A DNA stretch of 64,000 nt from Aneurinibacillus thermoaerophilus. GTDB lineage: Bacteria; Bacillota; Bacilli; Aneurinibacillales; Aneurinibacillaceae. Shown piece by piece: positions 30,974-34,908 of this stretch. Numbering within the stretch: position 1 is the first letter of the stretch; every line of letters begins with the position of its first letter. The stretch lies in NCBI RefSeq assembly GCF_900099925.1, contig NZ_FNDE01000001.1:62001-126000 (forward strand), read 5' to 3'. Made by a program: the position numbers and the translations under genes. A model generated the notes under the pieces. That model was given only the letters and a program-made list of their open reading frames with translations, did not search any database and had not been told where the DNA came from.

Positions 30974-31019
30974 AATGAGAAGCCTCGCTGGACAAACCTA
31001 GCGGGGCTGCCTCATTTTT
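30974..31019 (+). terminator. First terminator after pyrE
   Basis: AGCCTCGCT pairs with AGCGGGGCT, extended by AATGAG and CTCATT with one bulge, and is followed by five T. It ends the pyr operon. Confidence 0.85.
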
Positions 31020-31184: not shown

Positions 31185-33170
31185 TCACCCCCTCCTACTT
31201 GATTGTTGATTTACAGGAGCGGTATACTCTGGGACAATCCGGTAGCGTGCCAGAAGGTGATATGCTTTCTGTGCTACCCGTGGGAAATAGCGGATTTCCT
31301 GCACGTCAATTCCCTTTAACCAGAACAGCGCGATACCATAACCGGCAAGGCTAAAAATGGCGATGACAGCTGATTCAATACCAAAGAACAGAAATGCCGG
31401 CATTGGAATGAGCGGTTGTACCTTGAGTCCGAGCCATACAATACTGAGACCAATGGCGCTAAGCAGTAGAGATGACAGCAAAAATCCGCGCCACTTTTCG
31501 CCGAGAATAATCAGGCGAGTATATTGACTGATTGCACGCAAATTCAGCGCCATAACGACAATGAAGCACAACGATGTCGCCGCAATAATTCCATAAATCC
31601 CAAACAGCGGTGCCAGCGCATAGTTGCCGCCCCATTTTACGAGAATGCCGATCGCGACATGGCGCATGGGCAGGTCGGTACGCCCCAGTCCCTGAAGAAT
31701 GCCGGACGAGGTCATCATCAAAATTTGAAAGATTGTTCCAAAGCAGAGAAAACCGATAATCCAGGCCGCTTTTGAATACGTTTCCTCCGTGTTGCTGAAC
31801 AGAAATCCATTTACTGGATATGCGGCTACCGTTAAATATAGAGCCGCTGGAACCCCGGTAATGAGCGCCACACGCAATGCCATTGAACTCATGCGTTGCA
31901 CTTCGCGTTCGTCATCGCGCGAGTGCGCAGACGAGACAACAGGAATAATAGACGAACTAAGCGCAATTGCGAGAATAATCGGCAGACCTGCCAGTGACTG
32001 GGCGCTTCCACCGAGAATGCCGAGCGTGTCCATCGCTTCCTTGTACGTATGCAACTGCTCGGTAAAGAAACGGAGTGGCACGCACGGAATGTTTGTGTTT
32101 TCCGCATACTGGAACGGTCCGAGTGACTTGCTGTCCAGTTTGATATTTTCACCCAACGTAAGCGTTATTTTTACTTTTCCTCGCTCATAGAAGGCGTATT
32201 TTCTGTTTTTATCCCACGTAACTTTGCCGCCCATCGCTTCAGCTACCGGTTCAAGCGGCACCATCGTTGTATTATTGTTGTGCAGGTAAGGAGCCACTGG
32301 CAGAATTATTTCTTTGTTGCCGATGGTTGCCTCTTTATGACCGACCGCGAACGAAATGCGCTCTTCCTGCGGCGTCAACAGGCGCAGCGATGTGGATGAA
32401 TCAATAAAGTAAATGAGCGGCACCGCCAATGCTGATAGAGTAATCGGCAGCGACAGGCGGAGCATTTTGCTGTAAATTTGCCGATACGTAAGTTTTTTAT
32501 ACCTTTTTTGCGTGGCGAGTTCACGCTTTTGTTCCGGGCGTCGCTTTTTATAGAAATAGATCATGACCCCGCAGGCGGCAATGCTGCCGGTTACAGCTCC
32601 GAATGAAGCGCCGGCGACAGCCACGTCTTTGTTATAGCCTAGATGAAGCAGCACAAGCGGCAGCGCCACTGCGGTTATGACGCGCAAAATTTGCTCCATA
32701 ATTTGCGACAGACCGGTCGGTTGCATGAACTGCAGCCCCTGGAAGTATCCCCGCATGATCGCGATTAACGGGAAGAGGAGCATCGCTGGAGCGATGGCGC
32801 GGATCGCCAGCTCCGCCTGCGGTGCGAGCGTATATTTGGCGTAGTATGGCGCGATGATCATCATCAATGCGAACATGACAAAACCGGTCACAAGCGCAAA
32901 ATTGCGGGCTGCTTTATAGGTCTGATACGCCTCGTGATATTGGCCGATAGCCGTATATTCCGAGATTTGTTTGCTTAAGGCGCTCGGCACGCCCAGCGTG
33001 GCGATAATAAGCAGCATGCTATAAATATTGTAGGAAATAGTGTACAGCGTCATCCCGTCATTCCCCATAATATGCTGGAGCGGAACGCGCTGGCCGACGC
33101 CCAGTACGCGCGAAATGACGGCTGCCAAGGTTAGAATCAGCGTGCCTTTTAAAAATGAGTTCTTTGACAT
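31185..33170 (-). CDS. Lipid-flippase-like membrane protein (MurJ/SpoVB family) with an inserted domain
   Basis: Member of the MOP/MATE-like polysaccharide flippase group that includes MurJ, SpoVB and YtgP; relatives move lipid-linked wall precursors across the membrane. The 661 residues begin with the family start KGTLILTLAAVISRVLG and have about 14 membrane segments; MRGYFQGLQFMQPTGLSQIMEQ and the Asp of PLIYFIDSST are typical. Usual length is about 520-550; the excess is an extra domain at residues 270-373 between membrane segments 7 and 8. ATG 33170 follows TGAGGAATG and lies 10 bases after the rqcH stop, so the two are co-transcribed. The precise substrate (lipid II or another precursor) cannot be told. 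Confidence 0.88.
   Translation of the reverse strand: MSKNSFLKGTLILTLAAVISRVLGVGQRVPLQHIMGNDGMTLYTISYNIYSMLLIIATLGVPSALSKQISEYTAIGQYHEAYQTYKAARNFALVTGFVMFALMMIIAPYYAKYTLAPQAELAIRAIAPAMLLFPLIAIMRGYFQGLQFMQPTGLSQIMEQILRVITAVALPLVLLHLGYNKDVAVAGASFGAVTGSIAACGVMIYFYKKRRPEQKRELATQKRYKKLTYRQIYSKMLRLSLPITLSALAVPLIYFIDSSTSLRLLTPQEERISFAVGHKEATIGNKEIILPVAPYLHNNNTTMVPLEPVAEAMGGKVTWDKNRKYAFYERGKVKITLTLGENIKLDSKSLGPFQYAENTNIPCVPLRFFTEQLHTYKEAMDTLGILGGSAQSLAGLPIILAIALSSSIIPVVSSAHSRDDEREVQRMSSMALRVALITGVPAALYLTVAAYPVNGFLFSNTEETYSKAAWIIGFLCFGTIFQILMMTSSGILQGLGRTDLPMRHVAIGILVKWGGNYALAPLFGIYGIIAATSLCFIVVMALNLRAISQYTRLIILGEKWRGFLLSSLLLSAIGLSIVWLGLKVQPLIPMPAFLFFGIESAVIAIFSLAGYGIALFWLKGIDVQEIRYFPRVAQKAYHLLARYRIVPEYTAPVNQQSSRRG
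32052..32363 (-). other. Copper-amine-oxidase-N-like domain inserted in the flippase
   Basis: Residues 270-373 of the flippase read as a Cu_amine_oxidN1-type domain: GNKEIILPVAPYLHNNNTTM, then VPLEPVAEAMGGKVTWD, a GKVKITLTLGEN strand pair, and a second IPCVPLRFFTEQL half-repeat. This domain is otherwise common in secreted and wall proteins of Paenibacillaceae. It falls exactly between SLRLL and YKEAMDTLGI, which are neighbours in ordinary SpoVB-like proteins. By MurJ topology the loop is extracellular. Reading frame and base composition are continuous with the host gene. Confidence 0.75.
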
Positions 33171-33180
33171 ACTTCATTCC

Positions 33181-34908
33181 TCAAGACGTTGTAGTTTTCG
33201 TTTTCATTAGTTTGCGGACAACTTCTTCGTCCGGTGTGACAAATAGTGTTTTTTGTTGCTCGTAGATCACAAATCCCGGTTTGGCGCTTTTCGGTTTTTT
33301 CACATGACGTATAAGTGTATAATCGACAGGAACTTGGCTGGAATGACGCGCCTTGCTGTAATAAGCGGCAAGCGTTGCTGCTTCCGACAGCGTCGTTTCG
33401 CCGAAATCTGTTCCGCGGATGACCACATGCGAACCGGGAATGTCTTTCGTATGCAACCATGTGTCGTTTGGAGAGGCCAGCCGGTTAGTTAGATAATCGT
33501 TTTGCTTGTTGTTTTTCCCTACATAAATATCTACGCCTTCACTGGAGATATAACGTTCAAGCACAGGTTTTTTCGGCTTTCCTTTTTTCATTTTTTCCGG
33601 GCGCTTCCGCAGATAGCCCTGTTCGGACAGTTCTTCGCGAATTTCTTCAATGTCCAAAAGCCCTGCATTCTCAATTTGCTGTAGTACGGTATCCAGATAA
33701 TGTACTTCCTCTTCCGCTGCGGCGATTTGTTCATCGATGACAGCGAGGCTATTCTTCGCTTTTGTATACCGCTTAAAATACGCCTGTGCGTTCTCCGCTG
33801 GCGTAAGTGCCGGATCAAGCGGAATCGTGATCTCGGGCGCCTCTTCCTCGTAGTAGTTTACCACTTTTGCTTCCGTTTGGCCTTTAGTCATTTGGTATAG
33901 ATTTGCTGTAATCAGTTCACCGTATATCTGGTATTTGCGCGCGTTTTCCGCCTGCTGTTTCGTTTCTAGTAATTTTTCGATCTTCTTCTCGTTTTTGTTC
34001 CTCTCATTGGTGATAAACCGTACCAAATCGTGCATACGCTGCTTGACGGTGTCGCGTTCCGCTTTGCCTTGGTAGAACGCTTCAAGACATTCGCTAACCG
34101 TAGGGAACGTTTCGCTTTCTTTCGCTGGTAAGTGGGTTAAAGGAATGACGGAAAAATATTCTTTTTTATCCGTGCGAATAAGCATGGGTGTATAGGAATG
34201 GCGTCGGGTCGGCTCCAGCGTTTCCGAGAAAGCAGACCATAGCCGATCCTGCGTCGCAAGTCCTGCACGATGCACGATTTCATCCGCGATCAGAGGGCTT
34301 ATCCCCGCGAAAGCCCCGACGATTTGTTTGGAAATTTTCCCTTCATTAAAATGGATTTTGCGCATAAAGTCTTCTTTTGTCGCGGCGAGCGGGTTAAGCT
34401 TGTTTTGTGGTGGCGGAGCCACATATGGACGTCCGGGCAGAACAACTCGATAACGACTGACCGCGGGGGTGACATGGTGGATCCCGTCGTGAATCATTCC
34501 GCTCTCAGGGTCCATAAGAATTAAGTTGCTGTGGCGGCCCATGATTTCAAGCACAATTCGCTTTGGCCGCTCATCTCCGAGTTCGTCGCGGCTTCTAAGG
34601 TCAATATGGATGATGCGCTCCATATTCGTTTGGCGGATGGCTTCAATAATAGCCCCTTCGCAGTATTTGCGAAGTAGCATGCAGAACATCGGCGCTTCCA
34701 GCGGGTTTTGGTAGCTTATATTCGTGATATGTATACGCGGAAAACTCAGGCTTGCCGAAAGCAGAACCCGGACGTTTCCAGATCGTGTTCTTACTTGCAT
34801 GACAATATCCGTATCGGTCGGCTGATAGACTTTCATAATGCGGCCGGTGGCGAGCTTTTCATGCAGCTCGTGGGCCACCGCGCGCGTCACAATGCCGTCA
34901 AAGGCCAT
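33181..34908 (-). CDS. rqcH: Ribosome quality-control protein RqcH (NFACT family, FbpA)
   Basis: Binds stalled 50S-peptidyl-tRNA and adds C-terminal alanine tails for degradation; also described as a fibronectin-binding protein in older work. The 575 residues have the NFACT-N domain (MAFDGIVTRAVAHEL, RIHITNISYQNP, LEIMGRHSNLILMD), a helix-hairpin-helix region (GISPLIADEIVHRAG), a long coiled coil (about 300-430) and the NFACT-R domain (VDIYVGKNNKQNDYL, PNDTWLHTKDIPGSHVVIRG, DYTLIRHVKKP). AAGGTGAG precedes the ATG. The ylmH product at 14 kb is a known partner in this pathway. It is divergent from the ATPase gene and heads the two-gene flippase unit. Confidence 0.95.
   Translation of the reverse strand: MAFDGIVTRAVAHELHEKLATGRIMKVYQPTDTDIVMQVRTRSGNVRVLLSASLSFPRIHITNISYQNPLEAPMFCMLLRKYCEGAIIEAIRQTNMERIIHIDLRSRDELGDERPKRIVLEIMGRHSNLILMDPESGMIHDGIHHVTPAVSRYRVVLPGRPYVAPPPQNKLNPLAATKEDFMRKIHFNEGKISKQIVGAFAGISPLIADEIVHRAGLATQDRLWSAFSETLEPTRRHSYTPMLIRTDKKEYFSVIPLTHLPAKESETFPTVSECLEAFYQGKAERDTVKQRMHDLVRFITNERNKNEKKIEKLLETKQQAENARKYQIYGELITANLYQMTKGQTEAKVVNYYEEEAPEITIPLDPALTPAENAQAYFKRYTKAKNSLAVIDEQIAAAEEEVHYLDTVLQQIENAGLLDIEEIREELSEQGYLRKRPEKMKKGKPKKPVLERYISSEGVDIYVGKNNKQNDYLTNRLASPNDTWLHTKDIPGSHVVIRGTDFGETTLSEAATLAAYYSKARHSSQVPVDYTLIRHVKKPKSAKPGFVIYEQQKTLFVTPDEEVVRKLMKTKTTTS

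Follow-up and report, generated by a model that had tools for sequence, protein, structure and literature searches.

MurJ (MviN), the lipid II flippase, has a 14-TM MOP fold. Its TM7 acts as the fulcrum of the rocker-switch, and Arg255 in TM8 (Arg270 in E. coli) is essential and was proposed to be part of a substrate triad close to the outward gate (PMC6465408). Several MurJ homologues coexist in B. subtilis (PMC12096821). The MviN of Mycobacterium tuberculosis consists of MurJ, a C-terminal pseudokinase, and a carbohydrate-binding domain (PMC12599244), so that flippases bearing extra domains are already known in the form of C-terminal additions. The stalk domain (PF07833, Cu_amine_oxidN1) is known from other settings. 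The Pfam family includes domain 1 of the E. coli copper amine oxidase and the N-terminal domain of PaSOD, the Cu/Zn superoxide dismutase of Paenibacillus lautus, in which it makes the dimer according to SEC-MALS and the crystal structure 8IMD (PMC10432803). It was also reported in wall hydrolases (PMC4137172).

In this work, we analyzed a stretch of 64,000 nucleotides from Aneurinibacillus thermoaerophilus (hereafter the window) and found a flippase gene that has a stalk domain inserted between the codons for TM7 and TM8 (Table 1). Similar to MurJ, the flippase has a predicted 14-TM MOP fold (its model matches 6NC9 with Z 27.3 over 461 residues), and its TM1 residues Arg21 and Arg28 resemble, by eye, Arg18 and Arg24 of MurJ. 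Unlike MurJ, for which no inserted domain has been described, it has no acidic residue after Arg28 (Val29), has Ser389 near the position of the TM8 arginine, and scores far below the MurJ cut-off. The SpoVB and YabM-locus paralogues of Bacillales belong to the same PST branch and are 33-39% identical to it over the N-terminal half, but they form separate clades and have a TM7-8 loop of only 27-28 aa. The closest relatives are insert-free orthologues from Paenibacillales and from a sister family in the same order (f2, probably Brevibacillaceae), which are sister groups in the tree with ~41-61% identity in the aligned halves, but have a loop of 27-29 aa and mostly Arg389. In copper amine oxidase and PaSOD, both of which are soluble and secreted, the domain occupies the N terminus, whereas here it lies inside a membrane protein. 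Like the M. tuberculosis MviN, this is a MurJ-type flippase with an addition to its membrane body; the regulatory or scaffold domains of MviN are C-terminal and have other folds, whereas here the addition is a TM7-TM8 insertion. The anatomy of this stalk insertion is well supported and unusual. Our literature search, which covered open-access publications, found no description of a stalk domain inside a flippase, in agreement with the first-pass annotation, which knew of none.

Table 1. Features of the flippase locus, with positions in the window, strand, and basis.
Feature	Position	Strand	Basis
MOP/PST-type flippase CDS, 661 aa	31185..33170	-	Pfam, TIGR profiles, AF2 model
NFACT (RqcH/FbpA-type) gene, directly upstream of the flippase gene, 10 bp gap	33181..34908	-	
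TM6-7 loop, residues 207-238, 13 Lys/Arg	32457..32552	-	Hydropathy and charge
TM7, residues ~249-265	32376..32426	-	Hydropathy and AF2
Inserted segment, residues ~267-376	32043..32372	-	Alignment with insert-free orthologues
PF07833 Cu_amine_oxidN1 (stalk) match, residues 283-373, model positions 2-93 of 108	32052..32324	-	Pfam
Stalk motif 1 (strand, helix a1, strand), residues 301-320, TTMVPLEPVAEAMGGKVTWD	32211..32270	-	Pfam and AF2 models
Stalk motif 2, helix a2, residues 363-376, CVPLRFFTEQLHTY	32043..32084	-	AF2 model and conservation
Ser389	32004..32006	-	Alignment with insert-free orthologues
TM8, residues ~391-412	31935..32000	-	Hydropathy and AF2

Family placement and gene neighborhood

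A Pfam search with the whole protein matched residues 7-269 to Polysacc_synt (PF01943, E 1.5e-27) and the part from residue ~390 onward to the MurJ and MatE profiles. Together with a predicted MOP fold in the expected range of 12-14 TM helices, these matches place the protein among the PST-type members of the MOP superfamily. The first-pass annotation had called it a MurJ/SpoVB-type flippase, which holds at the level of the superfamily but not for SpoVB or MurJ proper, because the protein misses both TIGR cut-offs (TIGR02900 for SpoVB, 226.6 bits against 372.3; TIGR01695 for MurJ, 37.6 bits against 235.55). The insert-free orthologues also stay below the SpoVB cut-off, with 238-254 bits, and a true SpoVB, encoded elsewhere in the same genome, scores 500. 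An assignment to the YabM locus (spoVT-mazG) was rejected because the paralogue of that locus is found separately on contig C5 of this genome (G000); the gene names are those we take to apply from the gene order of B. subtilis. Sequence comparison thus identifies the flippase as a third PST paralogue, neither SpoVB nor MurJ sensu stricto. By family, its substrates would be lipid-linked envelope-glycan precursors, namely, a polyprenyl-diphosphate-linked glycan, for which lipid II is plausible.

Two further observations concern other members of this branch. The same genome has another PST paralogue (contig C82:26458-27822) with a profile match that spans a TAA stop, such that this copy may be truncated or end early. 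In two sister-family genomes (L099 and L100), a second protein exceeds the TIGR02900 cut-off and forms its own deep branch beside the normal SpoVB.

The NFACT and flippase genes are probably co-transcribed. Their adjacency is retained in six named Aneurinibacillaceae loci, and the pyr operon is located on the other side of the flippase gene in the same six, where the contig reaches that far. By contrast, the seven loci inspected in f2 and Paenibacillaceae showed neither NFACT next to the insert-free orthologue nor the NFACT/pyr arrangement. In the window, a terminator-like hairpin of 11 pairs (30981-31008) directly follows pyrE, in the gap where the pyr operon and flippase gene converge. Among the Paenibacillaceae loci with an insert-free orthologue, HAD hydrolase and DUF456 genes precede it in both L118 and L119; in L119, the next gene, three genes from the orthologue, encodes a class B penicillin-binding protein.

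Fold and predicted location of the inserted domain

The first-pass annotation had placed a copper-amine-oxidase-N-like domain at 32052-32363, in an outward-facing loop between membrane helices 7 and 8. The peptides and coordinates were right, although the real insertion is slightly wider. The match to PF07833 is strong, with an E-value of 8.9e-15 in the whole protein and 5.6e-26 (91 bits, cut-off 24.2) for the insert alone, and all of the nine aligned inserts match this profile. The insert is not a full two-motif domain (model positions 1-108): the match stops at model position 93, and the final beta hairpin, which corresponds to the last 15 positions, is absent, with a2 leading into TM8 instead.

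When folded alone by AF2, the insert had a pLDDT of 86. The first 17 Foldseek matches of this model are all E. coli copper amine oxidase (prob 0.85-1.00). Domain 1 of this enzyme ranks first with Z 8.6-8.9 over 73-76 residues, whereas the next fold entry reaches Z 4.4 and 8IMD, the domain from PaSOD, Z 2.9. The aligned part extends from before a1 through a2 (residues 302-378). A PDB search with the insert as a single sequence gave no match, and a profile search of the PDB reached amine oxidase and 8IMD with poor E-values (0.4-1.6); the identification of the fold therefore rests on the fold search. Domain 1 of copper amine oxidase, the enzyme that gave the domain its name, contains no active site, which is in another domain, so copper chemistry is not expected of the insert.

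Hydropathy suggests 14 helices, 13 clear and one weaker near residues 500-520. Because of the high number of Lys/Arg in the TM6-7 loop, the positive-inside rule predicts that this loop is cytoplasmic and that the TM7-8 loop is outside, the topology expected of a MurJ-type protein. The AF2 model of the whole flippase, based on nine sequences, has a pLDDT of 76 (mostly 73-86 across the insert). Its best PDB matches are MurJ and MATE structures, with Z 24-30 for outward-facing structures versus 15-20 for inward-facing ones. The order of Pfam matches, hydropathy, and AF2 agree on an insertion between helices 7 and 8, and most of the best stalk matches in the host genome have export-signal-like N-termini. 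On this evidence, the outward position proposed earlier is upheld by prediction, and the stalk domain would be outside the cell and near the membrane, held by a2 as it runs into TM8 by the exit gate.

Distribution, origin, and conservation of the insert

The insert is present, with the reading frame open throughout, in all 11 of the Aneurinibacillaceae genomes examined. Full-length proteins were found in A. aneurinilyticus, A. tyrosinisolvens, A. danicus, A. terranovensis, Aneurinibacillus sp. Ricciae_BoGa-3, and a Paenibacillaceae MAG. The Aneurinibacillaceae proteins have 129-137 aa between the last residue of TM7 and the first of TM8, versus 27-29 aa in all other aligned relatives, and the insert is absent in all four f2 genomes. 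No inserted copy was found outside Aneurinibacillaceae with a profile of the insert and its flanks in 346 Paenibacillales, 399 class-sample, and 398 phylum-sample genomes, scans that scored only 8-9 candidates from each genome against an Aneurinibacillaceae-derived profile, which a divergent stalk insert could escape. Many matches in the Paenibacillales scan start exactly at the post-insert junction and represent insert-free orthologues. In line with the first-pass annotation, the insert is thus not general among relatives. Several candidates were rejected. Three phylum-scan matches that reach toward the flanks (L076, L081, and L083) come from ORFs that lack a flippase body and contain a stalk domain complete with both motifs, and two Paenibacillales flippase frames of >640 aa (G823 and G895) have loops of 27 aa and hence no insert.

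Two quick maximum-likelihood trees group the insert-bearing proteins into one clade that is sister to f2, then to the Paenibacillaceae orthologues, and is apart from both SpoVB and the spoVT-mazG-locus paralogue. The simplest reading of these sequences is a single gain of the insert on the Aneurinibacillaceae stem. Most of the Aneurinibacillaceae genomes examined have 14-45 stalk matches each, so donor copies were at hand. Chance or an assembly artefact is excluded by the same in-frame insertion in 11 independent genomes and by the dN/dS values.

These values, at 0.03-0.06 where dS could be estimated, are close to that of the membrane body and indicate that the insert is under purifying selection. 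Conservation is uneven within the insert. The pairwise identity is highest in a2 (78%), followed by motif 1 (65%) and the distal part (41-45%), with 80% and 74% in the two membrane halves. As judged from the alignment, the a2/TM8 junction equals the membrane body in conservation, which is a new observation, while variation is concentrated in the distal face; this pattern fits a rigid mount bearing a partner-facing surface.

Only four clade-specific changes are found in the membrane body, one of which is at position 389. This residue is Ser in all 11 insert-bearing proteins, while among the 25 insert-free orthologues it is Arg in 22, Gln in two, and Lys in one; among paralogues, the YabM-locus proteins have Arg and SpoVB has Met. 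That Ser389 is common to every insert-bearing protein in the alignment is a new observation. Position 389 appears to lie near the TM8 arginine of MurJ. The alignment to MurJ begins one residue after Arg270 and would set 389 about one helical turn earlier; the register is uncertain and we do not claim equivalence. With the same uncertainty of register, the residues of the flippase that compare with the Arg24-Asp25-Arg255 triad are Arg28, Val29, and Ser389.

Candidate roles of the domain

Starting from this graft, whose fold, conservation, and single origin are established by sequence and prediction, we tentatively propose an exit-side docking role, a complete account to which we give slightly less than an even chance. 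The ancestor of Aneurinibacillaceae would have gained one stalk domain in the outward TM7-8 loop of a PST-type MOP flippase. The a2 helix would keep this domain close to the membrane beside the exit gate, where it may dock next to extracytoplasmic wall-building or wall-remodelling proteins or a wall polymer, with the membrane body meanwhile transporting the substrate by the usual rocker-switch. This would be the most likely role, with putative partners and substrate. The host itself couples stalk domains to wall hydrolases, as its genome encodes two stalk-AMIN-Amidase_3 N-acetylmuramoyl-L-alanine amidases (L032 on contig C18 and L033 on contig C12). Docking is supported by these amidases, by the occurrence of PF07833 in wall hydrolases elsewhere, and by the one orthologue near a class B penicillin-binding protein gene. 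Conservation is lowest in the distal part, the one presumed to face a partner, which does not favor one fixed ligand. Against docking, domain-free orthologues persist in neighboring families, the NFACT neighbor offers no wall-related hint, and the outward side is a matter of prediction.

The conserved a2/TM8 junction may instead suggest that the domain sits on the TM7-TM8 outward gate and tunes it, altering the rocker-switch or substrate range in concert with the missing TM8 arginine (Ser389). The insert links TM8 to TM7, the fulcrum in MurJ, and the arginine of the proposed MurJ triad is located near the same gate. The contrast at position 389 between insert-bearing proteins and their orthologues is one of so few such changes, and the AF2 model is outward-facing. 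However, a state modelled from a nine-row alignment means little, and because the insert and Ser389 arose on one stem, their link is a single event. Moreover, the arginine is also lacking in proteins without the insert, namely, SpoVB and two Paenibacillales orthologues, and equivalence of position 389 to MurJ Arg270 is not established. We consider gate tuning unlikely.

Somewhat less likely still is that two flippases pair outside the membrane through their stalk domains, as in PaSOD. Both the profile search and the fold search with the insert recover 8IMD, albeit weakly and with a far lower Z than that of the amine oxidase domain. The single a1 of PaSOD pairs in trans, whereas the insert already has a1 and a2 in cis, and MOP flippases are generally considered monomeric.

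The insertion could also be a tolerated passenger, fixed by drift and required only to fold without disturbing the flippase. The abundance of stalk domains means that copies for recombination are plentiful, and evolution is faster in the insert (38-76% identity to the query) than in the membrane body (60-93%). Such a passenger is improbable, given its retention in all 11 genomes, which span four genera and protein identities as low as 61%, the low dN/dS, and core motif residues and an a2 that are invariant or nearly so. A topology error that leaves the TM7-8 loop in the cytoplasm is highly improbable in view of the TM6-7 charge, the 14 helices, the MurJ fold, and the mostly exported stalk proteins of the host.

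Regardless of the role, these proteins indicate that a length-constrained TM7-8 loop can take up an entire domain. The docking account addresses the open question of how flippases pass precursors to wall-building enzymes, for which a natural flippase with a folded exit-side domain, together with close domain-free orthologues, provides a ready comparison for the role of the module. A bolder and quite unlikely possibility is that the added outer domain acted together with the altered TM8 residue to rewire the outward gate, coupling precursor release to an extracytoplasmic partner. If true, transport and wall assembly would be physically joined in one polypeptide.
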